Under the pieces are notes generated by a model. The model saw only the letters and a list, made by a program, of their open reading frames with translations. It was not told where the DNA came from and ran no database searches. From positions 1,312,501 through 1,376,500 of the forward strand of contig CP128835.1 in assembly GCA_030388825.1 (NCBI GenBank): 64,000 nucleotides of DNA. Reading direction: 5' to 3'. Source of the DNA: Rossellomorea sp. AcN35-11. Lineage in GTDB: Bacteria > Bacillota > Bacilli > Bacillales > Bacillaceae_B. A program made the translations under genes and the position numbers. Shown in pieces: positions 14,834-60,941 of this stretch (position 1 is the first letter of the stretch; the number at the start of each line of letters is the position of its first letter).

Positions 14834-15530
14834 GGATAAGAAACTGAAGAAGCTTATGGCGAATACGAAGCGTAAGCTTGTGACGCAGATCGCTCCAAAA
14901 TCACCGATTTCAGAGCAGTACAAAACCATTCGAACCAATATCAACTTTTCATCGGTGGATCGGGAAATGCACTCCATCATGCTCACATCCTCTGGTCCAG
15001 GGGAAGGGAAATCAACTTCAGCAGCCAATATGGCGGTTGTGTTCGCCCAACAGGGAAAGCATGTACTACTCGTTGACGCGGATATGCGTAAACCAACGGC
15101 TCATTACACGTTTAACGTGACAAACACGTTTGGACTTACAACGGTATTAACGAGACAGAAAACATTAAGAGAAGTCATTCATCAAACAGATGTGGAGAAT
15201 TTAGATCTTTTGACATGTGGTCCGGTACCACCGAATCCTGCTGAGTTACTAAGCTCCCGGTCCATGGAAGAATTCCTTGTGGATGTATATGCAGACTATG
15301 ATATGGTCATCTTCGATACACCGCCAGTTCTTGCTGTAACAGATGCTCAGGTGCTGGCCAATCAATGCCACGGCACTATCCTGGTCGTAAGTTCTGGAAC
15401 GACGGAAATTGAAAGTGCCCAGAAAGCAAAAGAACTTCTGCAATCCGCTAAAGGGAAACTTCTAGGGGTCATCCTTAACAATCGAGAGATCAAAGATACA
15501 AGCTATTATTATTATTATGGTAAAAGATAA
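14826..15530 (+). CDS. BY-type protein tyrosine kinase (YwqD/PtkA/EpsB/CapB type)
   Basis: The start is the TTG at 14826, five bases after GAGGTGA; it overlaps the end of the modulator gene by eight bases. The 234-residue kinase has a Walker A motif SSGPGEGKST (G57-S63), Walker A' LLVDADMRKPT, and Walker B VIFDTPPVL. The C-terminus ends in a cluster of five consecutive tyrosines followed by GKR, the autophosphorylation tail. It should regulate polymer length or export in concert with the modulator and the downstream phosphatase. Confidence 0.93.
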   Translation: MGKDKKLKKLMANTKRKLVTQIAPKSPISEQYKTIRTNINFSSVDREMHSIMLTSSGPGEGKSTSAANMAVVFAQQGKHVLLVDADMRKPTAHYTFNVTNTFGLTTVLTRQKTLREVIHQTDVENLDLLTCGPVPPNPAELLSSRSMEEFLVDVYADYDMVIFDTPPVLAVTDAQVLANQCHGTILVVSSGTTEIESAQKAKELLQSAKGKLLGVILNNREIKDTSYYYYYGKR

Positions 15531-15645
15531 CAATTGAGAACTGGTGATTCGACAAATTTCACCCGTTTACAAAAATAACTATTGTAGTAAAATTATAGAT
15601 GTTGCAATAAGTCGAAAGAACTAATTAATAGGAGGAGTGATGACG

Positions 15646-16413
15646 ATGATCGACATACATAGTCATATCCTGCCAGGGGTGGATGACGGAGCCCGTACCC
15701 TGCAGGATAGTGTCGATATGGCCAAACTTGCTGTATCGGAAGGGATTGATACGATCATCGCAACTCCTCATCATATGAACGGCCAGTATGAGAATGAGAG
15801 AGTTGATATTCTTCACAAGGTGGACGAACTGAACGTTCACCTGAAACAAGTCAATGTCGATTTAAAAGTACTTCCGGGTCAAGAATGCAGAATATTCGGT
15901 GAAATAATTACGGACTATAAAAATGGGAAAATTTTGCCGTTAAACCGAGTTTCCCCATACCTTTTTGTAGAATTCCCTTCGAGTTCGGTTCCGAGATATG
16001 CAGACAGACTGTTTTACGAGCTGCAAAATGAAGGTCTGATACCTGTCATCGTGCATCCTGAAAGAAATGCAGAACTTATCGAACGACCGGACAGACTATA
16101 CAACCTGGTCAAGAACGGTGCGGTCACTCAACTAACGGCATCCAGCCTGACAGGGTATTTCGGCAAAAACATCCAGAGGTTTTCACGCCAATTAATAGAA
16201 GCCAACCTAACACACTTCATCGCCTCAGACGCTCACAATATACATAATCGCTCCTTCAAGATGGAAGAAGCCATGGAAACCCTAGAGAAAACGTACGGAA
16301 TAGACACAATCTATTACTTTACAGAAAATGCAGAGCTCCTGATTGAAGGAAAGAATATCTACAAAGAAATCCCGGAGAAGGTTAAAAAGAGAAAATTCCT
16401 AGGGATTTTTTAA
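15646..16413 (+). CDS. PHP-family protein tyrosine phosphatase (YwqE/CpsB/CapC type)
   Basis: The start is the ATG at 15646 ten bases after GGAGG, giving MIDIHSHILPGVDDGA as in YwqE; nearby upstream GTG/ATG codons in the same frame are too close to the site. The 255-residue PHP domain has metal ligands in DIHSHILPGVDDG, IATPHH, GQECR, IVHPERN and FIASDAHN. It should dephosphorylate the BY-kinase. A 106-base gap from the kinase gene contains no clear terminator. Confidence 0.92.
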   Translation: MIDIHSHILPGVDDGARTLQDSVDMAKLAVSEGIDTIIATPHHMNGQYENERVDILHKVDELNVHLKQVNVDLKVLPGQECRIFGEIITDYKNGKILPLNRVSPYLFVEFPSSSVPRYADRLFYELQNEGLIPVIVHPERNAELIERPDRLYNLVKNGAVTQLTASSLTGYFGKNIQRFSRQLIEANLTHFIASDAHNIHNRSFKMEEAMETLEKTYGIDTIYYFTENAELLIEGKNIYKEIPEKVKKRKFLGIF

Positions 16414-49757: not shown

Positions 49758-50819
49758 ATGCAATTGTCGCAGTTGGGGTGGAATTTATCTTTAGCTGAAA
49801 AGTTTAATGAGTATAAAGAATGTGGGTATGAAGTAGGGAGAATTATTCTTGAGCATAAAAATAGTTACCGGGTTATGAATGAAGGGGGAGAACTGCTGGC
49901 AGAGGTATCGGGTAAGTTCAGACACACTGCGGAAGAAAGAAGTGAATTCCCCGCAGTAGGAGACTGGGTAGCCATTTCAGTATTAAAAGAAGAAAAAAAA
50001 GCCATTATTCACGGTATACTTCCTCGTTTTAGTAAATTTTCCCGGAGAGCTTCCGGGGAATCGACCGAGGAGCAGATCGTAGCAACAAATATTAATACTG
50101 TGTTTTTAGTGATGTCCTTAAATAATGACTTTAATATCAGACGGATTGAAAGGTATCTTATTACAGCATGGGAAAGCGGTGCTAATCCTGTCATTGTCTT
50201 AAGTAAGTGTGATTTATGCAAGGATGTTGAATCGCGTATCAAGGAAATTGAGGGTGTTGCGCTTGGGGTTCCCATACACGCGATTAGTGCAACAGAAGGC
50301 ATAGGTCTTGAACAACTGAAGGGATATTGTCTGGAAGGTAAGACAGTTGCGCTTCTTGGCTCTTCTGGTGTAGGTAAATCTACAATATGTAACTATTTAT
50401 TTGGAGCAGATAAACAACAAGTGAAGGAGATACGGGATGGCGATGATAGGGGGAAGCATACGACCACCCACAGAGAATTGATTTTTCTACCTGATGGTGG
50501 AATCCTGATTGACACGCCAGGTATGAGAGAGCTGCAGCTTTGGAATGTAGAAAATAGTATGACGACAAGCTTCTCAGATATTGAAGAACTGGCTAAATAC
50601 TGCAAGTTCAATGATTGTCAGCATGAAGATGAGCCATCTTGTCAGGTGATGCAGGCTATCGACGAAGGACTGCTGGATCGAAAGCGTTATGATAATTACA
50701 AGAAGTTCCAGAAAGAATTAGCCTTTTTAGATAGGCAAACGAATAAACGATCACAGCTTCTTGAAAAGGAAAAATGGAAGAAGGTCTCCGGTGATCGGAC
50801 AAGATATAATAGAAGGTAG
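49758..50819 (+). CDS. rsgA: Ribosome small subunit-dependent GTPase A-like protein
   Basis: A 353-residue circularly permuted GTPase with an N-terminal OB fold (about 25-95, containing AVGDWVAISVLK), G4 VLSKCDL, G5 ISATEG, G1 LGSSGVGKST (about 199-208), G3 IDTPGMREL and a C-terminal zinc site CKFNDCQHEDEPSC. RsgA checks late 30S assembly. At 353 residues it is longer than B. subtilis RsgA (298), so this may be a second, accessory copy. It lies 47 bases before the second RNPP regulator and in the same direction. Confidence 0.9.
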   Translation: MQLSQLGWNLSLAEKFNEYKECGYEVGRIILEHKNSYRVMNEGGELLAEVSGKFRHTAEERSEFPAVGDWVAISVLKEEKKAIIHGILPRFSKFSRRASGESTEEQIVATNINTVFLVMSLNNDFNIRRIERYLITAWESGANPVIVLSKCDLCKDVESRIKEIEGVALGVPIHAISATEGIGLEQLKGYCLEGKTVALLGSSGVGKSTICNYLFGADKQQVKEIRDGDDRGKHTTTHRELIFLPDGGILIDTPGMRELQLWNVENSMTTSFSDIEELAKYCKFNDCQHEDEPSCQVMQAIDEGLLDRKRYDNYKKFQKELAFLDRQTNKRSQLLEKEKWKKVSGDRTRYNRR

Positions 50820-52277: not shown

Positions 52278-52442
52278 ATGTTGAAAATTAAAGTGCTATT
52301 ATTATCATTATCAATCGTGCTAGGTGGTTCGATATTTACATACACGAATGAAAGCGGAAAGAATCTTAATGAATCCAACCAACAAATCATTCTTAATGAT
52401 GAATCACAACCTGGTCCATTTTCACAAGGTTATACAAGCTAA
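52278..52442 (+). CDS. Secreted signalling peptide precursor 2 (54 aa)
   Basis: ATG 52278 follows GAAGGGGAAATGTTACT. A hydrophobic signal (MLKIKVLLLSLSIVLGGSIF) leads to a polar tail ending NDESQPGPFSQGYTS. Its place after an XRE/TPR regulator and its layout match the RNPP pheromone precursors. A strong terminator follows, so it forms a unit with the regulator or has its own promoter in the 125-base gap. Confidence 0.65.
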   Translation: MLKIKVLLLSLSIVLGGSIFTYTNESGKNLNESNQQIILNDESQPGPFSQGYTS

Positions 52443-52687: not shown

Positions 52688-53269
52688 GTGACGATTGAGA
52701 TTGGAAACAAAATAGTTCCTCGCCTTCAATCTAATAGGGATAAGGATCATAAAGAAATCTACCGCTTTCAAATATTTAAAGAGACAACGGACTTTGCTGA
52801 GAACACATCGGGAACTGAGGATGAAAAAATCCCTCTCGTATCATTAAATATCTTAGCTCAGATGGTATATGAAGTTGTGGAAAAGGTAAATCAACTAAAC
52901 CCTCAGCCTATCGTCATTTTATTAAGAAAAAACATAGTAAAGGGTGTAGGAAGACCTGGGATGTATGGGTTTGACTTTACCAATGAGACGTTAGTCCCCA
53001 TCGAGTCGTTGGGAGTGGAAGAATGGAACAGGCTGAAGGAGCAATCGAAGTCTTCTCTCGCACTGGGCTTTGGTTTGCTAGGGGAGGATCAGAATTCGAA
53101 GTTAACGCAAGAAACTATCATAAAAGGCAGTGAAGGAGTGAAAAAAGAAATGAAAAGAATTCTGGAATTACATGGTGACTTGGAAGATATCGTGGCGGAA
53201 AACCCGGTAGGCATCTCTAAACTTCCATTAGCTTATCTTCATTGGATCAAAGGGAAAAATACGCTGTAA
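52688..53269 (+). CDS. Unknown protein at the head of the RiPP locus (193 aa)
   Basis: The GTG at 52688 follows GGAAGGAGGTAAGAA. The product begins MTIEIGNKIVPRLQSNRDKD and is a soluble alpha/beta protein with an LKEQSKSSLALGFGLLGEDQ segment and a charged C-terminus. No family is recognised. The position before the precursor array, in the same direction, suggests a maturation, immunity or regulatory role, but nothing in the sequence decides this. Confidence 0.6.
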   Translation: MTIEIGNKIVPRLQSNRDKDHKEIYRFQIFKETTDFAENTSGTEDEKIPLVSLNILAQMVYEVVEKVNQLNPQPIVILLRKNIVKGVGRPGMYGFDFTNETLVPIESLGVEEWNRLKEQSKSSLALGFGLLGEDQNSKLTQETIIKGSEGVKKEMKRILELHGDLEDIVAENPVGISKLPLAYLHWIKGKNTL

Positions 53270-53312
53270 GGTAGCGCAGGAAATGGAGAACTCCTGCTGA
53301 CAAGGAAATTAG

Positions 53313-53336
53313 TTAAACCAAAGATCGAGGGCCACA
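53313..53336 (+). repeat. Left arm of a 24-bp perfect inverted repeat around the precursor array
   Basis: TTAAACCAAAGATCGAGGGC plus CACA; its exact reverse complement is at 53977-54000, 640 bases away. The four precursor genes lie between the arms and nothing else does. Confidence 0.9.
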
Positions 53337-53379
53337 ATAAACTCTATCCCATAAATGATATGGAAGGGAGGGCAATCTC

Positions 53380-53496
53380 ATGGCAGAAATGAAAAAAGCT
53401 GAGGAAAAAGTATCTTTAAAGGATCTAGACATCCGTTTCTCTGAATTAAGAGATGAAGAGCTTGCAGCACGTCCAGTGACACACGTAGGCCATTAA
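53380..53496 (+). CDS. RiPP precursor peptide, copy 1 (38 aa)
   Basis: ATG 53380 follows GGAAGGGAGGGCAATCTC. The 38-residue peptide has a charged Lys/Glu leader-like part (MAEMKKAEEKVSLKDLD) and a C-terminal part with FSELRDEELAARPVTHVGH. It differs from copies 2-4 only at residue 7 (A instead of T). Three arginines (19, 24 and 31 region), several Asp/Glu and two His in the C-terminal half are potential targets of the arginase-like and JmjC-like enzymes encoded downstream. Confidence 0.75.
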   Translation: MAEMKKAEEKVSLKDLDIRFSELRDEELAARPVTHVGH

Positions 53497-53529
53497 TCAA
53501 ATTAATCACTAGAATAGGAGGAAATCATC

Positions 53530-53646
53530 ATGGCAGAAATGAAAAAGACTGAAGAAAAAGTATCCTTGAAGGATCTAGATATCCGTTTCTCTGAATTAAG
53601 AGATGAAGAGCTTGCAGCACGTCCAGTGACACACGTAGGTCATTAA
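53530..53646 (+). CDS. RiPP precursor peptide, copy 2 (38 aa)
   Basis: Starts after AATAGGAGGAAATCATC, which recurs before copies 3 and 4. The protein equals copies 3 and 4. The repeat unit (gene plus spacer) is 149-150 bases, so the array arose by tandem duplication. Confidence 0.75.
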   Translation: MAEMKKTEEKVSLKDLDIRFSELRDEELAARPVTHVGH

Positions 53647-53678
53647 TCAAATAATCACTAGAATAGGAGGAAATCATC

Positions 53679-53795
53679 ATGGCAGAAATGAAAAAGACTG
53701 AAGAAAAAGTATCCTTGAAGGATCTAGATATCCGTTTCTCTGAATTAAGAGATGAAGAGCTTGCAGCACGTCCAGTGACACACGTAGGACATTAA
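53679..53795 (+). CDS. RiPP precursor peptide, copy 3 (38 aa)
   Basis: Same protein as copy 2; the DNA is nearly identical to copy 2 including the spacer, which suggests the most recent duplication. Confidence 0.75.
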   Translation: MAEMKKTEEKVSLKDLDIRFSELRDEELAARPVTHVGH

Positions 53796-53827
53796 TCAAA
53801 TAATCACTAGAATAGGAGGAAATCATC

Positions 53828-53944
53828 ATGGCAGAAATGAAAAAAACCGAAGAAAAAGTATCCTTGAAGGATCTAGACATCCGTTTCTCTGAATTAAGAG
53901 ATGAAGAGCTGGCAGCGCGTCCAGTAACCCATGTAGGTCACTAA
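53828..53944 (+). CDS. RiPP precursor peptide, copy 4 (38 aa)
   Basis: Same protein as copies 2 and 3, although its DNA has several silent changes (for example CTGGCAGCGCGT against CTTGCAGCACGT, and CCAGTAACCCATGTAGGTCAC against CCAGTGACACACGTAGGACAT). Preservation of the amino acids with drifting codons indicates that the whole peptide is under selection. Confidence 0.75.
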   Translation: MAEMKKTEEKVSLKDLDIRFSELRDEELAARPVTHVGH

Positions 53945-53976
53945 AAGAGTCTACATAATCACCGGGAAACGAGGAA

Positions 53977-54000
53977 TGTGGCCCTCGATCTTTGGTTTAA
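53977..54000 (-). repeat. Right arm of the 24-bp perfect inverted repeat
   Basis: Reverse complement of 53313-53336. It lies between the last precursor and the ribosome site (AAGGAG, 54007-54012) of the first downstream enzyme gene. Confidence 0.9.
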
Positions 54001-54021
54001 ACTTCTAAGGAGTGATAAGAA

Positions 54022-55266
54022 ATGAGTTTTTTTCAAGAATTACAAGTTTCTACAAAGGATTTCATAGAACCGGCATCACTGAAGAATCAAATGGACATTA
54101 CAGACGTCTATGACGCACCATTTCAGACATTATTATCAATGGCCCGAGCTAAAGGTACAGATGATTCTTATCGGAATAATTTACGCATTTATGTAGATGG
54201 TGAATCACGTGAGGATTTAGAAGAATTTATTCTTCTAAATCCTCCTCATTCTTTTGAGGAAATAGAGCGATGGGGTAGAACTACATTTAAAGGTCAAGAT
54301 TTTCTTGTGGTTATCAACAGAGTAGAGAAATGGTATAACCCGATAGTTAAATGGTGCGGCAACTTGTTCGAGGCGGCCAAAGGGCAACTCAATGAGGAGC
54401 TCTTACATGTAGAGGTTACATATTTTATTGGAAATACAACGTATACGCCATTTGGGATACACATTGATGAAATTTCAGAGGCGCTTCATTTAAACCTGGG
54501 ACCCAACGAAAGATATATGTATCTGTGGGAGCCAGAAACATATAAGAAAATGAGAGGTTCATATGAACCATTGATTAATCCTTCCCCACAAATATTTTCT
54601 CATTCCCAGAAATACAACATTGAGAAAGACAATTGGTTCTTCCTTCCGGCCAGTAAATATTTTCATGTAGGAGAGAATGCAGATTTTAGTATATCGTTAG
54701 CGGTTGCCATGATTCGACTTGATGAAAATGAACTATTTAAGAGAGCAATGGAATTGGCACAACTTCCATTAGAAGCTCCTGGCTCCATCGATGTCAAAGG
54801 CATCATAAAACAAACAGTGGAGCTGGAATGCCATCAGAAGAGCGGGATGATCCCTTTGACAGAACTCATACAAGCCAATGATCCTGCTGAAGTGGCCCTT
54901 GTGCAGTATGCTCTACGAATGAGGAGTAATTTGGGGTTTAGAATTCCTACGAGCACAACGGATAAGGAATTTCCTGAATTATCTGATTGGAGAGAAAGCT
55001 CGATTTCATTAAATGCTCCTTTCAAGTTGTTAGCGTTAGAGAAGGAACATGAAGTGGATGTGTTTGCTGGAGGGAATATGATGAGTCTGATAAGGCATGA
55101 TGCCATTCTTGACATAATAAAGAAATTGAACACGGAATTCTCATTAAGTGTCATAGAATTAATCGAAACATTTAAAGATGAGATCAATGAGGACTCCATC
55201 TATTTACTATGCAAAGCCTTCTATAAGTATGGGGTACTTGAGGTGAAATTTCATGAATATGTCTAA
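54022..55266 (+). CDS. JmjC/cupin-like oxygenase-type protein 1 of the RiPP operon
   Basis: A 414-residue protein starting MSFFQELQVSTKDFIEPASL after TAAGGAGTGATAAGA. A cupin core has TPFGIHIDE (H147, D149) and a distal histidine H215 in KYFHVGEN, the HxD...H metal triad of Fe(II)/2-oxoglutarate oxygenases. The C-terminal about 130 residues (LLALEKEHEVDVFAGGNMMS to the end) look like a winged-helix-type domain. It is related to the proteins at 56466 and 57716, which have the same TPFGIH motif. Likely role: hydroxylation or other oxidation of the precursor. The 3' end overlaps the arginase gene by 14 bases. Confidence 0.7.
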   Translation: MSFFQELQVSTKDFIEPASLKNQMDITDVYDAPFQTLLSMARAKGTDDSYRNNLRIYVDGESREDLEEFILLNPPHSFEEIERWGRTTFKGQDFLVVINRVEKWYNPIVKWCGNLFEAAKGQLNEELLHVEVTYFIGNTTYTPFGIHIDEISEALHLNLGPNERYMYLWEPETYKKMRGSYEPLINPSPQIFSHSQKYNIEKDNWFFLPASKYFHVGENADFSISLAVAMIRLDENELFKRAMELAQLPLEAPGSIDVKGIIKQTVELECHQKSGMIPLTELIQANDPAEVALVQYALRMRSNLGFRIPTSTTDKEFPELSDWRESSISLNAPFKLLALEKEHEVDVFAGGNMMSLIRHDAILDIIKKLNTEFSLSVIELIETFKDEINEDSIYLLCKAFYKYGVLEVKFHEYV

Positions 55267-56491
55267 ACAGTATGTTCTCAATCCAACAATTTCAGTTGAA
55301 CATAAAGGTCACTTCCTTAATATTATCCTTCCTTATCAGAAAAAGAAACTCCAAACGAATCTTCAATTCAGCAAAGTAGTTGAGCTCATGAAAGAGCCCA
55401 ACAGTCTTGAAGTGTTAGAGGGAAAGGGATTAACTGGAAATGTGTTGGCGTTTTTGCTGGATGAGTCTATCATCATTCCTCAGGAAGCTCATTCCATCTA
55501 CAGAAATGGACTGGTTATACAACCCAAGAATACCATCGGCAAGAAGTTAGATCTTAACCAACTAGAAAATAAAGAATTTAATCATCGATTTTGTTTCTTA
55601 GGCATTCCCGTTTCTTATGAACATAAAGGGAATATGAGTCCTGTTGATGGAACTTCATTAATTAGATCCAATATTAAACTTTTTGACCCGGCTTCTTCGG
55701 ATGAAGAGTATTTAGTGGATATGAATCACTCCAGAAGCTTCAAAGCGGAAAATGTCACTCCTTATGATGTAGGAGACGTAAGTTATGATTCCCGTATTGA
55801 AACCATAGAAGATGTAAACAAAAAAGTGAGATACATTGTGGATAAAATGTCAGAAAATCACTTGAAGCCTATTGTCCTGGGAGGGGATCACACCGTGACT
55901 TACCCAGTCGTGTCGACCCTTATGGATAAGTATGAGAATATGACCATCATCCATTTTGATGCGCATACCGACCGTTATGAAAGCCAGTTGAGAAATACCA
56001 AAGGTCTTACTATAGGAAATGTGTTCAGTGAACTAATGAAAGAGAAACACTTTCATCAGTTAATCCAGGTGGGGATAAGGCAATTCGAAAGAAAGTATTC
56101 TAACGATATGGGAATATCGAGTAATGTCCGCGTGTATTCATCGAATGATATCCATACGATGGAGGATGTCACATCTATCTTTTCCACCGTCGATAAGAAC
56201 ACTCCTATTTATGTTTCATTCGATGTAGATGTGCTAGATCCTTCAAATGCTCCTGAAGTGGCATGGCCGGTTATAGGGGGAATCACCTATCATCAGGCGT
56301 CACTCCTCATGGAATACTTAAGTACCCATTTCAATGTAGTAGGGGCAGATTTCGTAGAAGTATGTGCAGGAGATCAGAAACCCAATTTAGCAGCCCTATC
56401 CGTAGCCAACCTGGCTACCCAACTCGTATTAAATCAACATAATCAAACATATAGAGGTGAAGAAAATGAACATGGTGACGAAATCAACTAA
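55253..56491 (+). CDS. Arginase/agmatinase-family protein with N-terminal PqqD-like region (candidate peptide arginase)
   Basis: A 412-residue protein. The C-terminal about 280 residues are a ureohydrolase domain with all manganese-binding motifs: GGDHTVTYP (H213), HFDAHTDRYE (D236, H238, D240) and SFDVDVLDPS (D324, D326). Standard arginases are about 300 residues; the extra N-terminal about 110 residues (VEHKGHFLNIILPYQKKKLQ, LEGKGLTGNVLAFLLDESII) resemble the winged-helix PqqD-like RiPP recognition fold. Some RiPP pathways use a peptide arginase to convert Arg to ornithine; the Arg-containing precursors here would be suitable. Free-arginine metabolism is unlikely in this operon. Confidence 0.8.
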   Translation: MNMSKQYVLNPTISVEHKGHFLNIILPYQKKKLQTNLQFSKVVELMKEPNSLEVLEGKGLTGNVLAFLLDESIIIPQEAHSIYRNGLVIQPKNTIGKKLDLNQLENKEFNHRFCFLGIPVSYEHKGNMSPVDGTSLIRSNIKLFDPASSDEEYLVDMNHSRSFKAENVTPYDVGDVSYDSRIETIEDVNKKVRYIVDKMSENHLKPIVLGGDHTVTYPVVSTLMDKYENMTIIHFDAHTDRYESQLRNTKGLTIGNVFSELMKEKHFHQLIQVGIRQFERKYSNDMGISSNVRVYSSNDIHTMEDVTSIFSTVDKNTPIYVSFDVDVLDPSNAPEVAWPVIGGITYHQASLLMEYLSTHFNVVGADFVEVCAGDQKPNLAALSVANLATQLVLNQHNQTYRGEENEHGDEIN

Positions 56492-57719
56492 AGTAGCTCC
56501 AATCATATCAGATAACTGGATCACTAGGTTACTCCAAGAAACGAACGGTTTAAAAGACTATGCTTTAATTCCCAATATGTTACTAAATCCAGAGCAAGTA
56601 ACGACTGAACTGAAACATGCAATCGGGAATGTAAAGAGTCATAATGAAAAAGCTAATTTCAGGGTGTTTATTGATAATGGCCAACGTTATGATCTTCTGG
56701 AAAAACTTTGGAATACCCATTTTGATGAAGAAGCGGATCTGGATGATTGGATACAAGAAACGATTGGGTATGAAGAATATTGTTTTACCTTTAATGGCGT
56801 CATGAAATGGAATGACAGGCTGCATACCAGAATGACATCTGAAGTGATTAAACCGATCATTGACGATGTAGGAGTTCCGATGGCAGGAGTGGATGCATAT
56901 GCATTTATTGCCAATGCCGGATATACGCCATTTGGTATTCACGAAGATCCCGACCATTCTTTGATCTTTCATTTGGGACCGGATGAAAAGCACGTTTGGA
57001 TATGGAAGAGAGAAGAGTACCTGGAGCTAACGGGAAGTTCGGATCGCCGTTTTGATCCGGAAAATCTTGTAGAACACGCAACACATTATGTTTTAAAGCC
57101 TGGGGATTGTTTATTTATTCCGAAGGGGGATTTTCATGTATTCAAGAATGTAGGATTTTCTTCGTTTCTGGGATTTATACTCTATCCTTCTACCGCTGGA
57201 ACTGTGGGGGAAGAAGGAATCAAGATGCTTACAAAGCTTAATGGAAATCAGCCCCATTACTTTGTGAAAGAAGAAAGTTTAGAAAAAAGCATATATGAGC
57301 AAATTGACTTTATCACCCAGTCCCATCGACATGACCTTGAAAAAGGGATAAAGCAAGGATCATACTTCTATCATCTGCTACTTAAGAGTAATGGGTACGC
57401 CATTCATAAACCGATTATGAAAGAAATGGATACGATTCATGATTTGAGTCGTACAACATTGATTAAGCCTGCATGTTTTCCTATACTCCACGTCATAGAA
57501 ACAGACAAAATTACCTTATTTATCCGTGGAAGACTCCTTCAGCTTAAAAATGTACCTGGCATAGTGGAATCCATCAAGATCATCCAAAGTAAAACCGAAA
57601 TAACGTACTCGAGTCTTATTGAAGAATTGACAAACATAATATCTTTCGAAGTGGCTGCATTCCTGGTGAAGTGTGCGATTCAATATAAGGGATTAATTGT
57701 AAAGGAGGACGGAAGATGA
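56466..57719 (+). CDS. JmjC/cupin-like oxygenase-type protein 2
   Basis: The ATG at 56466 is preferred; an in-frame GTG at 56457 is part of the ribosome site AGAGGTGA. The 417-residue protein has TPFGIHEDPD (H159, D161) and distal H224 in PKGDFHVFKN, and a C-terminal winged-helix-like domain starting near HVIETDKITLFIRGRLLQLK. It is a paralogue of the proteins at 54022 and 57716. It overlaps both neighbours (26 bases with the arginase, ATGA with the next gene). Confidence 0.7.
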   Translation: MNMVTKSTKVAPIISDNWITRLLQETNGLKDYALIPNMLLNPEQVTTELKHAIGNVKSHNEKANFRVFIDNGQRYDLLEKLWNTHFDEEADLDDWIQETIGYEEYCFTFNGVMKWNDRLHTRMTSEVIKPIIDDVGVPMAGVDAYAFIANAGYTPFGIHEDPDHSLIFHLGPDEKHVWIWKREEYLELTGSSDRRFDPENLVEHATHYVLKPGDCLFIPKGDFHVFKNVGFSSFLGFILYPSTAGTVGEEGIKMLTKLNGNQPHYFVKEESLEKSIYEQIDFITQSHRHDLEKGIKQGSYFYHLLLKSNGYAIHKPIMKEMDTIHDLSRTTLIKPACFPILHVIETDKITLFIRGRLLQLKNVPGIVESIKIIQSKTEITYSSLIEELTNIISFEVAAFLVKCAIQYKGLIVKEDGR

Positions 57720-58933
57720 GTATACCTACATTACATCATCTGAGCAAAGAAACAAATCACTTTACACGCCCGGTCGTTTGGAAATCATTCCTTAAAAAGA
57801 CGAATTGGGATAAGATTTATACCGATTTTGTACGGGAAGTCCAAAATAGCGAAAGAATTCCCCAAATGAATATTAATGTGAAGGACGCAGTCAAGCCGTG
57901 GTTAAGAAATAGAATAAAAGATTCTTCAGTCGATAATCATGATTCATTGGAACAATGGTTTTCTCAATGGCTAGGAGGTGACAATTTCTGTGTATTGTTT
58001 GACAGAATAACAGATTATAGTGAAAAAATACATGAGATTCTCACTTCTAATGTGTTGACGAACTTAGGGGAAAAGGATCTGAAAATGGGTGCAGACTCTT
58101 ATGCGATATTTGGAAACTACGGATATACACCATTTGGGATCCATCCGGATAATGAACCTATCTTCCTGATTCATTGTGGTCCATCTACCAAGGACGTGTG
58201 GTACTGGGAAACTGACCCTGATCCAAGTATAACAGGTAGAACGGATCTATTGGAGTCTGGATCTGAATGGGAAAAGTCTGCTGTCCATGTTGTGCTTAAA
58301 CCTGGTGATATGATATTTATCCCTAGCCAAATGTATCATTTGCTGTATACTCCGGACTTTTCAGTTACATTGGGGACTGCTTTGTTTCCTGCTAGCGCTC
58401 CCTCGTTAATCCGTTCGGGAATAGCTAATTTGGATCATCAGCCAGCTGACACACTATCCCTCTTCTGGTCAGAAGAAGAATCGATTGAGGCACAATACCA
58501 TTCCATAATAGATCAAGAGTTAAATGGAAATAATATAGATTTTGGCGAACTGATCTTCCAAGGAGTACTTGACCAGAGACGTTTACTCAGAAGCAACGGT
58601 GGTTTTATCGGAAGTCCAACCGAAATAGAACAGACAGCTTCCGTCAATTTTGAAAAATCCTGTTTTAGAGTAAAGAAGAATATCGAAATACCAATTAAGA
58701 AAAATGGAAGTGAACTGCACCTGTATCTTCGCGGTAGGAAGTGCAAATTGAATAACCATCCGTTAATCGAGAAAGCAGTGCACTTTATTCAAGCAACTCC
58801 AAAGTTTTCTTTAAAAGACGTGGCCAGAGAAATGGGAGAAGAATCTATCGCATTAGACTTGATCAAGTTACTCTATTTTAACAGAGGGATCGAAACGGCT
58901 TGTACGTGTCAAGTAAACGGAGGTGTGAAATGA
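57716..58933 (+). CDS. JmjC/cupin-like oxygenase-type protein 3
   Basis: Starts with an ATGA overlap after AAAGGAGGACGGAAG. The 405-residue protein has TPFGIHPDNE (H143, D145) and distal H208 in SQMYHLLYT; the C-terminal domain includes ELHLYLRGRKCKLNNHPLIE, like protein 2 (FIRGRLLQLKN). This third paralogue suggests that several positions or steps are modified, or that the proteins form a hetero-complex. Confidence 0.7.
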   Translation: MSIPTLHHLSKETNHFTRPVVWKSFLKKTNWDKIYTDFVREVQNSERIPQMNINVKDAVKPWLRNRIKDSSVDNHDSLEQWFSQWLGGDNFCVLFDRITDYSEKIHEILTSNVLTNLGEKDLKMGADSYAIFGNYGYTPFGIHPDNEPIFLIHCGPSTKDVWYWETDPDPSITGRTDLLESGSEWEKSAVHVVLKPGDMIFIPSQMYHLLYTPDFSVTLGTALFPASAPSLIRSGIANLDHQPADTLSLFWSEEESIEAQYHSIIDQELNGNNIDFGELIFQGVLDQRRLLRSNGGFIGSPTEIEQTASVNFEKSCFRVKKNIEIPIKKNGSELHLYLRGRKCKLNNHPLIEKAVHFIQATPKFSLKDVAREMGEESIALDLIKLLYFNRGIETACTCQVNGGVK

Positions 58934-59718
58934 CTATCGCTGTAAAAGAAGTGATCTTAGAAGAAGATATCCCATTACATGCATTGGACCAGCCGGTGAT
59001 AGTAAGAAAACACTTATCGTATTCAGGATACTCCAATCTTGTATCACATACTATTGAGTTTCTTAAACATAGTGGTTGTTCCATTATAGCGAGCCGGAAA
59101 GGGGAGCGGGAAACAAGGGAATTTAGCCTGGATGAATATCTTGTCTATATGAATGAAACGAGTGATGAGAATCCATGGTATGCGTCCAACTTGCGCAATA
59201 GTGAAATGTTAAATGGGATTATGGAGAAAATCGAGCTGCCGGCATCCTTTTCTAATTGGTTGGACTCTTTACCACAAGATGTGAAGCCACCCTGGCTCTG
59301 GTTATTTATGGGCCCGGCCTCATCTTCTACAGCCCTTCATATTGATGTTATGATGAGCAGTGCGTGGAATCTACTTCTAAGCGGAACAAAAAAATGGAGG
59401 TTCTTATCTCCTGCAGAGTCTATTGTAAAGGATGTATTAGATGATGATTATGCTGATGAGTTTCCTTCTTCCAGATATGAGGTAGAAGTTCTTCAGTTTC
59501 CTGGAGATTTGGTTTTTACCCCAAGTGGTTGGGCGCATGAAGTCATAAACCTTGAACCCACTATGTCCGTTACGGGTAATTTCATTAACGAAAGTAACGT
59601 ACATCTAGCAGAAATGTACCTTAAGAAAAGGGATAAGGAAGCTTGGATCAAAGTACTTAATAAGCTAAAAGAAATAAATCGTTTAACTAAAGGGTCAACC
59701 TCAGGAGGAATTCAATGA
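58930..59718 (+). CDS. JmjC-domain protein 4 (canonical cupin-like hydroxylase)
   Basis: The ATG at 58930 lies after GGAGGTGTGAA and overlaps the previous stop (ATGA). The 262-residue protein has a regular JmjC core: STALHIDVM (H137, D139), LLLSGTKKWRFLSP with the 2-oxoglutarate lysine region, and H203 in GWAHEVINL. Small proteins of this class include peptidyl hydroxylases acting on Asp, Asn, His or Arg side chains. It differs from the three larger paralogues and lacks their C-terminal domain. Confidence 0.82.
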   Translation: MTIAVKEVILEEDIPLHALDQPVIVRKHLSYSGYSNLVSHTIEFLKHSGCSIIASRKGERETREFSLDEYLVYMNETSDENPWYASNLRNSEMLNGIMEKIELPASFSNWLDSLPQDVKPPWLWLFMGPASSSTALHIDVMMSSAWNLLLSGTKKWRFLSPAESIVKDVLDDDYADEFPSSRYEVEVLQFPGDLVFTPSGWAHEVINLEPTMSVTGNFINESNVHLAEMYLKKRDKEAWIKVLNKLKEINRLTKGSTSGGIQ

Positions 59719-60941
59719 AACCGATACATATTCTTAAAGACTTAAACTTTCTTACCTTTTGGTTAGCCCATGTCATTTCTTCTATTGGGAATACTCTCAT
59801 ACCTGTCACTATTACATTTGCAGTATTAGAGGTTACAGGAAGTGCAACCAGTCTTGGCCTCGTATTAGGGGCACTTTGGATTTCACGAGTGTTATTCGTC
59901 ATGTTTGGAGGGGTTTGGGCTGACCGTATTTCAAGAAAGAGTATTCTGATTGGTTCGGATCTGCTTCAAGGGGTCAATCATTTCATTATTGCTTTTCTCT
60001 TTTTTACCCATTCGATTGAGCTGTGGCATTTAGTGGTCTCTGCCTTGCTATACGGTGCTGTTAGTGCTTTTCATTCCCCTGCCTCAGGTGGACTGATTCC
60101 ACAAATTGCAAAAGAAGATCAGCTTCAACAGGCAAATTCACTCCTAAGCGTAGTGAATAGCATATTTGAAATAGCTGGTCCAGCCATTGCGGGGATATTG
60201 GTTGTTTTGGTCGGGTTTGATGTAATCTTCTTCATTGACGCCATGACTTTCTTTGTAAGTCTGGTACTCATGTTACTGGTTACACCGAAGTACAAGTTGG
60301 AAATCACAGTAGGTAACACCTATTGGCAAGATTTGAAAGAGGGGATACATTTAGCGAAGAATCAAACTTGGATATGGAGGTCACTTATCACCTTTTCCCT
60401 GATAAACTTTGCAGTTGCAACTTTTAATGTTCTTGGTCCGATAGCTCTTTTAGATCAATTAGATGGTCCGAAAGAATGGGGAATGATTCTAACCGCTGCC
60501 TCGGTTGGCGGGTTGCTGGGAGGTTTGATTTCTCATAACTTCAAGCCAAAGAATCCATTAAAGTTTGCCTTTAGCTTAATGACGGTTTTGGTGCCCCTTG
60601 AAATCCTTATGCTGATCGGTCCGGCTTCACACTGGTTGATTATGGCTGTGGCTATGTTGGCAAGCGCAAGTATTATCATAAGTGCCGTTTTCTGGGATAC
60701 ACTCGTTCAACAAAAGGTACCTGAACATATGCTATCCAGAATCGGTTCATTGGATTCTTTTGTTTCCTTTGTATTCATGCCGGTGGGGTTTGTATTGGCG
60801 GGACCTATTTCTGAGGTGCTAGGAATCACATGGACCCTTCTCCTCTTGGCATCTTTAGTTTTCATCCTGAACATAGGGGTCATCTATTTTAAAGATGTTA
60901 GAAAGGCAGAATTTGATCAGTCAATGAATATGGAAGCATGA
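59715..60941 (+). CDS. MFS exporter of the RiPP operon
   Basis: A 408-residue, twelve-helix transporter of the EntS-like drug/siderophore exporter group (LNFLTFWLAHVISSIGNTLI, VWADRISRKSILI as loop 2-3 motif A, and a FHSPASGGLIPQI segment). ATGA overlap with the JmjC gene and a strong AGGAGG site place it in the operon. It is the natural candidate to export the mature peptide, possibly after proteolysis by a protease encoded elsewhere, since no dedicated peptidase or peptidase-containing ABC transporter is present. Confidence 0.88.
   Translation: MKPIHILKDLNFLTFWLAHVISSIGNTLIPVTITFAVLEVTGSATSLGLVLGALWISRVLFVMFGGVWADRISRKSILIGSDLLQGVNHFIIAFLFFTHSIELWHLVVSALLYGAVSAFHSPASGGLIPQIAKEDQLQQANSLLSVVNSIFEIAGPAIAGILVVLVGFDVIFFIDAMTFFVSLVLMLLVTPKYKLEITVGNTYWQDLKEGIHLAKNQTWIWRSLITFSLINFAVATFNVLGPIALLDQLDGPKEWGMILTAASVGGLLGGLISHNFKPKNPLKFAFSLMTVLVPLEILMLIGPASHWLIMAVAMLASASIIISAVFWDTLVQQKVPEHMLSRIGSLDSFVSFVFMPVGFVLAGPISEVLGITWTLLLLASLVFILNIGVIYFKDVRKAEFDQSMNMEA

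Follow-up and report, generated by a model that had tools for sequence, protein, structure and literature searches.

What does an operon make that sets four copies of a gene for a 38-aa peptide in front of an arginase-family gene and several genes for Fe(II)/2-oxoglutarate (Fe/2OG) oxygenase-like proteins? The operon lies in a 64,000-nucleotide stretch (the window; positions 1,312,501–1,376,500) of contig CP128835.1 of Rossellomorea sp. AcN35-11. Read as open reading frames (ORFs) and with Pfam, it consists of four precursor genes, cup1, an arginase gene, cup2, cup3, a JmjC gene and a major facilitator superfamily (MFS) gene, in this order and all on the forward strand. An earlier note on this DNA had listed four 38-aa precursors, three related TPFGIH-type proteins, an arginase-family protein, a JmjC protein and an MFS protein, and the coordinates and Pfam agree with it. 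Its account of the gene order held in part: the enzyme genes do overlap (by 14, 26, 4, 4 and 4 nt between successive genes from cup1 to the MFS gene), but the arginase gene follows cup1 and precedes cup2, and there is no overlap of cup1 with the precursor genes. Judged from sequence, the operon probably makes and exports a ribosomally synthesised and post-translationally modified peptide (RiPP), in which R31 is predicted to become ornithine and core residues, most likely histidines, are predicted to be hydroxylated. Several bacterial phyla contain related operons, and almost every one of these has its own short peptide gene; an undescribed class of ribosomal peptide natural products is therefore likely.

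The precursor is built from a leader and a separate core, as is typical of RiPP precursors, and contains no Cys. Copies 2–4 are identical in protein sequence (T7); copy 1 differs only in having A7. Comparison of copies 2–4 with the three copies of R. arthrocnemi gives 10–13 synonymous and no non-synonymous changes (nine pairs), comparison of copy 1 with the same copies gives 14–16 and two, and the window precursors differ from those of Rossellomorea genome G017 by 6–14 synonymous and 1–4 non-synonymous changes. About 79% of random single changes in these genes are expected to be non-synonymous; because of the synonymous excess, the ORFs are genes and not chance frames. On this comparison they are under purifying selection, from which we infer their translation. 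No match to the precursors was found in PHROGs or NCBIfam.

Searching 5.8 billion proteins with a precursor profile gave 54 peptides at E ≤ 10, those of the query rows counted. The leader motif is present in all 54 and the core motif in most, with Arg at the R31 position in 51 and His at the H35 position in 50; these counts are not independent and lean towards the motifs, because the search profile itself contains them. Further hits carry the names Collimonas, Undibacterium, Massilia and Peribacillus. Six peptides deviate at the R31 position, the H35 position or both: P0036 and P0048 have Gly cores, while P0040, P0061 and P0068 (named Photorhabdus) and a near-copy, P0058, look decayed. The Photorhabdus tasmaniensis locus of P0061 (L017) has the altered core ARPVRQICNA, and its first oxygenase frame is interrupted by a stop; the locus appears to be decaying. 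D15 and L16 are invariant in the precursor alignment A2 (11 rows), and the leader motif is LxDLDIR-like in Bacillota and EDLGLE-like in Pseudomonadota. Bacillota precursors share a conserved block of about eight residues; the eight core residues include two His, both invariant in five aligned Bacillota precursors.

Homologous loci were collected by one scan of 84,980 species genomes with a 17-row oxygenase profile, which yielded 27 loci. The earlier note had read the window locus as a RiPP operon, and the homologous operons were searched for cases without a peptide gene. A short peptide gene lies directly upstream of the first oxygenase gene in 26 of the 27, the Gordonia locus being doubtful; this reading is supported because operons lacking a precursor gene did not occur. 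The adjoining of precursor and modifying-enzyme genes that marks RiPP clusters is thus found both in the window, with its four ORFs and their synonymous excess, and in its relatives. In nine of the 27, the leader motif recurs together with a core resembling ARPVTHVGH or ARPIRHIR.

Among the Bacillota, the R. arthrocnemi locus (L013) has the complete gene set, and L052 (genome G294, probably Sutcliffiella, as a protein of Sutcliffiella cohnii is among the relatives) has four precursors ending in ARPVTHVGH and every enzyme. Precursors, three oxygenases and the arginase were found in Rossellomorea G017, where RsgA was the only other gene looked for. The Oceanobacillus locus (L015) holds one precursor (TRDVNHVGH), cup1, the arginase, cup2 and the MFS gene; the Pontibacillus locus (L014) holds three precursors, cup1–3 and the MFS gene, and neither arginase nor JmjC. 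An ARP(V/I)RHIR-type precursor (altered in L017), two oxygenases and an arginase are found in six Pseudomonadota loci, four from Photorhabdus and one each from Neisseriaceae and Sodalis; JmjC is present in all of the Photorhabdus and Neisseriaceae loci and missing in that of Sodalis. An ABC exporter is recognised by Pfam in Photorhabdus L016, and L020 and L021 have an ORF of similar size at that position. In the Neisseriaceae locus (L020), an extra 2OG-FeII_Oxy_3 protein follows the arginase (15044–15703).

In the Actinomycetota, a 31-aa peptide ending in P-R-(Q/R)-D-V-G-H is encoded directly upstream of a TPFGIH oxygenase in all 11 Streptomyces loci (L022–L032), in two tandem copies in L032. 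Nine of these 11 also have MFS and RsgA genes, and the annotated plasmid copy of S. goshikiensis (L061) has, besides, a second cupin and a 2OG-Fe(II) oxygenase. In all six Mycobacteroides/Mycobacterium loci (L033–L038), a 25-aa peptide ending in S-H (VASH) is encoded directly upstream of the TPFGIH oxygenase. Over 15 pairs from different mycobacterial loci, the peptide genes differ by 54 synonymous and 15 non-synonymous changes; over 66 pairs of Streptomyces peptides there are 145 and 240, which is weaker evidence of selection. Mycobacterial ORFs ending in PVRH (at about 13.7 kb, L034–L038) were considered as precursors and dropped, because the sister locus L033 has none, with a long opposite-strand ORF there, and because a better candidate lies directly upstream of the oxygenase.

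The locus is rare. With the centre genome included, it was found in three of 61 relatives, three of 35 genomes of the genus and four of 397 of the order; of two matches among 398 genomes of the class, one (G616) is weak and partial. Sampling around Photorhabdus gave two of 295 and two of 217 genomes, with one partial Pseudomonadota hit in each; around Oceanobacillus it was found in one of 159, and in two families in one of nine and one of 18. Viral contigs gave two weak relatives only. By sequence comparison, this is a rare and widely scattered RiPP-type operon family of Bacillota, Pseudomonadota and Actinomycetota.

Further relatives lie on plasmids. Four Pantoea and Klebsiella plasmids (L059, L062, L063 and L064) carry an arginase, a TPFGIH oxygenase and a second JmjC-type protein, with GNAT and MFS genes in three of the four and a divergent small gene ending in RRDTGH or RSDTGH. 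Nostoc and Streptomyces plasmids (L060, L065, L066 and L067) carry oxygenase relatives beside G-x-RPD repeat peptides and DUF3865 proteins, and two Streptomyces plasmid loci also have amidinotransferase-type and tRNA-ligase-related genes. In L060 and L066 the oxygenase relatives carry HxG instead of HxD, a triad change known from Fe/2OG halogenases. A literature search on DUF3865 and the repeat motif gave nothing useful.

The arginase has the PF00491 fold together with the Mn-binding motifs of the ureohydrolases; an alignment of ten arginases shows no variation in the metal-ligand motifs GGDH, DAHxD and DxD, which bears out the earlier statement that all Mn motifs are present. In sequence and fold, its body is closest to agmatinase. 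An extra N-terminal domain has the element order of a RiPP recognition element (RRE) (model pLDDT, a per-residue confidence score, 77). Arginase loci were read in 15 cases (the window, L013, L015–L021, L052, L054, L059 and L062–L064, the last three being near-copies), and every one of the 15 peptides has an Arg close to its C-terminal end; for L059 and L062–L064 that peptide is a candidate on the opposite strand. Outside this count are, by definition, L014 and the actinobacterial and Nostoc loci, and also the contig of P0006/P0036/P0048, with one oxygenase and two Gly-core peptides. In Pontibacillus the core is AAGPVNHVGH, with Gly at the Arg position and the leader arginines kept, and the locus has no arginase; elsewhere this genome has only ordinary arginase-family genes (best E 2.2e-18). 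This joint loss of arginase and core Arg points to R31 as the arginase substrate.

The HxD...H triad reported earlier for the three cupin/JmjC-like proteins was found in each of cup1, cup2 and cup3. Pfam model PF08007 (JmjC_2) matches cup3 above the cut-off (1.9e-5) and cup2 below it (3e-4), with no hit for cup1. The predicted fold of cup2 has its best structural matches in the ribosomal oxygenases (ROX) YcfD, NO66 and MINA53, along the full length including the C-terminal domain, at 9–14% identity; a JmjC domain with HxD...H, a helical middle part and a C-terminal winged helix, the parts of the ROX fold, are all present. Ribosomal oxygenases of this group hydroxylate Arg or His. In a tree of 25 of the 34 sequences, which excludes four JmjC proteins and five that are second-type or unclear, cup1 groups with the first oxygenases of Photorhabdus, Neisseriaceae and Sodalis (support 98/95), and cup3 forms a single group with the cup3 proteins of L052 and Pontibacillus (support 100/100). 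His is kept in nearly all loci read with an HxD-type enzyme, also where Arg is missing, which makes core His the favoured site of hydroxylation. The JmjC protein matches JMJD6 (E 2.3e-23). Examined by BLAST, window-type JmjC is present in eight of ten arginase loci (the window, L013, L016–L020 and L052) and in none of 19 loci without arginase (L014 and L022–L039); this restriction fits a step after the arginase, as for the ornithine-requiring BipG and PbsQ. Like the arginase N-terminus, the C-terminus of cup2 is predicted to have an RRE-like element order, and leader binding by both is putative.

From these observations a pathway can be proposed. The leader motif would be gripped by the RRE-like domains of the arginase N-terminus and the oxygenase C-termini, and the arginase would hydrolyse R31 to ornithine. 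The TPFGIH oxygenases would hydroxylate the core, probably at His, as ribosomal oxygenases do with the side chains of Arg or His, and the JMJD6-like protein would hydroxylate the ornithine, as BipG does in biphenomycin. A protease encoded outside the operon would cut off the leader, and the MFS protein would export the core. The operon is likely regulated by a secreted-peptide quorum system, an mRNA stem likely sets the precursor message apart from that of the enzymes, and an RsgA-like gene copy hints that the product acts on the small ribosomal subunit.

Several points weigh against this pathway. Modification, cleavage and product are predictions. Pontibacillus offers one loss event only, and Arg need not imply an arginase, since the Streptomyces peptides have it (PRQDVGH) while their fetched flanks contain no homologue of the window arginase. 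Mycobacterial peptides of this locus type lack Arg in their C-terminal part, and where HxG-type relatives occur, in Nostoc and Streptomyces, the adjoining repeat peptides contain Arg but not His. JmjC is missing in the arginase loci L015 and L021; ornithine hydroxylation by the JMJD6-like protein is therefore not universal. The RRE-like domains match by element order only, with no Pfam RRE hit; the profiles of the arginase N-terminus and the cupin C-termini do not match each other (hhalign probability ≤ 19), which speaks against taking a shared origin of the two as established. No protease family was found in ten operon-region proteins scanned with Pfam and NCBIfam; the protease may be encoded elsewhere in the genome.

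Features of the Rossellomorea locus, with positions in the window
Feature	Position	Strand	Remarks
RsgA-like GTPase, 353 aa	49758..50819	+	TIGR00157 167.8 bits (cut-off 100); candidate self-protection gene
HTH + TPR regulator, 428 aa	50866..52152	+	HTH_3 1.9e-11, TPR_12 9.7e-16; conserved in L013, L014
54-aa pre-peptide, hydrophobic N-terminus, DExQPGP motif	52278..52442	+	putative quorum signal
193-aa protein, GTG start, no known domain	52688..53269	+	conserved in L013, L014, L052
Inverted repeat 5′ arm, 24 bp	53313..53336	+	100% complementary to 53977-54000
Precursor copy 1, 38 aa, A7	53380..53496	+	ORF
Precursor copy 2, 38 aa	53530..53646	+	leader about residues 1-30; predicted core R31-P-V-T-H35-V-G-H38
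Precursor copy 3, 38 aa	53679..53795	+	ORF
Precursor copy 4, 38 aa	53828..53944	+	ORF
Inverted repeat 3′ arm	53977..54000	+	ends shortly 5′ of cup1 ribosome-binding site
cup1, TPFGIH-type Fe/2OG oxygenase homologue, 414 aa	54022..55266	+	HxD...H motif
Arginase-family (PF00491) enzyme, 412 aa	55253..56491	+	PF00491 E 5.7e-49; Mn motifs
cup2, TPFGIH-type oxygenase homologue, 417 aa	56466..57719	+	ROX-like fold; C-terminal RRE/winged-helix-like domain
cup3, TPFGIH-type oxygenase homologue, 405 aa	57716..58933	+	PF08007 1.9e-5
JmjC oxygenase, JMJD6-like, 262 aa, ATG start	58930..59718	+	PF02373 2e-13; candidate ornithine hydroxylase
MFS exporter (predicted), 408 aa	59715..60941	+	MFS_1 1.8e-32

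The start of cup2 is the ATG of database protein P0001. The source assembly is flagged as 9.2% contaminated; the same locus is present in two further Rossellomorea genomes.

The four precursor genes are bracketed by a perfect 24-bp inverted repeat with arms 640 nt apart, and such a repeat was found around the precursors in four Bacillota genera. The arms of Pontibacillus and L052 have changed in sequence and kept their pairing with few mismatches; Oceanobacillus (L015) has an arm pair of partly different sequence at the same position. Predicted RNA duplex energies are −48.0 kcal/mol for the window, −46.1 for L013, −41.9 for L014, −42.7 for L052 and −37.5 for L015, against −27.4 kcal/mol for the best of at most 1000 random segment pairs of the window region, and the arms pair with each other in every full-region fold of these five. 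The modelled repeat is likely to form an mRNA stem that separates the precursor message from the enzyme message or protects it; alternatively, the arms may be paired protein-binding sites. The ends of a common mobile element were also considered and rejected, because in all five genomes the repeat occurs just once in each orientation (≤3 mismatches allowed).

The functional unit extends upstream to about position 49758 and includes the RsgA-like GTPase, the regulator with helix–turn–helix (HTH) and tetratricopeptide repeat (TPR) domains, the putative signal peptide and the conserved 193-aa protein. RsgA is a GTPase of the 30S subunit. The RsgA-like gene lies near the operon in three Rossellomorea genomes (the window, L013 and L054), in L052 and in Pontibacillus L014, as well as near nine of the 11 Streptomyces loci, the contigs of the other two being short and the L025 match falling into two pieces in different frames; the Oceanobacillus, Pseudomonadota, mycobacterial and Gordonia loci, as far as fetched, gave no match. 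Rossellomorea G017 has a separate rsgA (301 aa, 30% identical) after prpC-prkC and before rpe, where the chromosomal gene is expected, the gene names being taken from sequence reading, so that the operon gene, judged from this genome, is a second copy. A role in self-protection is possible, and the copy hints that the product acts on the small ribosomal subunit; since RsgA-like genes are common on plasmids (152 records), this is a lead rather than proof. The regulator, presumably of the RRNPP/Rap-like class, is followed by the 54-aa pre-peptide, whose DExQPGP motif is conserved in four species; the two are likely a quorum-sensing pair controlling the operon. Between the regulator and the precursors, three Bacillota genera share the 193-aa protein, for which PHROGs gave no match and Pfam and NCBIfam none that passed a curated cut-off.

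The product might be a metallophore, with hydroxylated His and hydroxy-ornithine binding iron or copper, rather than a ribosome-acting antibiotic. Beta-hydroxylated His and Asp are siderophore ligands, two of the eight core residues are invariant His, and the MFS protein resembles the models TIGR00900 and EntS, the enterobactin exporter (1.9e-30 for the latter, below both cut-offs). We nevertheless consider a metallophore rather unlikely, as the operon has no uptake receptor gene, an HTH-TPR regulator and a secreted-type peptide are its neighbours and the RsgA copy points elsewhere. The peptide could also be a mere carrier in a scaffold-peptide pathway, the exported product being a modified amino acid or dipeptide. 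The plasmid relatives beside repeat peptides and DUF3865, with amidinotransferase-type and tRNA-ligase-related genes in two Streptomyces loci, would suit such a pathway, as would the short window core and an MFS protein in place of a peptidase-containing ABC exporter. This appears improbable, as the Bacillota conserved block is longer than a single residue requires, the window operon has no ligase gene and Photorhabdus L016 has an ABC exporter.

Two other rivals concern the substrates of the enzymes. The arginase may act on free arginine or a small guanidine, for ornithine or urea supply, as its agmatinase-like body would allow. The extra RRE-like N-terminal domain, the ordinary arginase-family genes elsewhere in the same genomes and the absence of the arginase only together with core Arg among the Bacillota loci read (one case) make this quite improbable. 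That the oxygenases are ribosomal oxygenases proper, acting on ribosomal proteins while the peptides serve another purpose, would agree with the whole-chain matches of cup2 and with a ribosome GTPase nearby; it is highly improbable given that the locus occurs in so few genomes of the genus (3/35), that one operon holds three paralogues and that peptide genes accompany the oxygenase family almost throughout (26/27).

If the modified-peptide reading is correct, ROX-like JmjC enzymes would be class-defining RiPP maturases, and TPFGIH with an upstream peptide would serve as a genome-mining handle for loci mostly missed by the Pfam and NCBIfam models tried. Pontibacillus, a natural relative lacking both arginase and core Arg, makes the substrate assignment testable. 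A broader proposal is only tentative: a RiPP class of Bacillota, Pseudomonadota and Actinomycetota in which ROX-like JmjC enzymes act on a near-terminal His of a tiny peptide with an acidic leader, with an optional arginase module for Arg to Orn, in whose Bacillota members the stem excises or guards the precursor message in a way akin to rRNA processing stalks, and in which a spare RsgA guards the producer against a product attacking the small subunit. Enzymes related to ribosome modifiers would then make a peptide against the ribosome; the RsgA copy would be a direct guess at the target, and the precursor stem a possible means of obtaining much precursor and little enzyme from one operon.

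The maturase set of this operon family is undescribed in the open-licence papers searched. Among the best-ranked papers, none dealt with this precursor family or with a RiPP locus that has more than one TPFGIH oxygenase; the earlier note knew of no described class combining such proteins with an arginase. Peptide arginases of the OspR type (PF12640; landornamide A) convert Arg to Orn in a precursor peptide. The reaction predicted here is the same, and the protein family is another: the Pfam scan of the window arginase gave PF00491 and one chance hit at E ≤ 1, and no membership in PF12640. A PF00491 peptide arginase, like that of the window, is described in the available passages on enteropeptin: KgrD acts after thiomorpholine formation from Cys and is followed by an N-methyltransferase (PMC12703449). 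The window operon, unlike that pathway, has neither a thiomorpholine-forming enzyme nor an N-methyltransferase, and it falls outside the enteropeptin class, having no precursor Cys and no radical S-adenosylmethionine (SAM) hit in the ten proteins scanned.

The closest parallel is with the biphenomycin and pbs RiPPs. The earlier claim that peptide arginases and Fe/2OG enzymes occur separately in RiPP pathways does not stand, as passages on biphenomycin-type clusters describe an arginase together with a JmjC or cupin-like hydroxylase acting on the ornithine, and BipG and PbsQ need ornithine (PMC12707348, PMC12257519). A short C-terminal core with Arg, an arginase and a JmjC protein are shared with the window, and the bip cluster also has an MFS gene. 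According to the same passages, the known clusters use a multinuclear non-haem iron-dependent oxidative enzyme (MNIO) with a partner protein, a B12-radical-SAM enzyme, an FRF core and a UPF0489/pfam12640 arginase; the window operon, in contrast, has no MNIO or radical SAM enzyme, a core of RPVTHVGH, a PF00491 arginase and three added ROX-like oxygenases, and thus lies outside that class. Bacterial homologues of PF08007 JmjC proteins with RRE-like folds are mentioned in RiPP-like contexts (PMC12710340); JmjC and the RRE-like fold are shared, and the passage seen names no precursor, arginase or product. With YcfD, NO66 and MINA53, finally, cup2 shares the whole-chain fold and the HxD...H triad, but it differs in its low identity (9–14%), in the several paralogues per operon and in the dedicated short peptide gene adjoining them.

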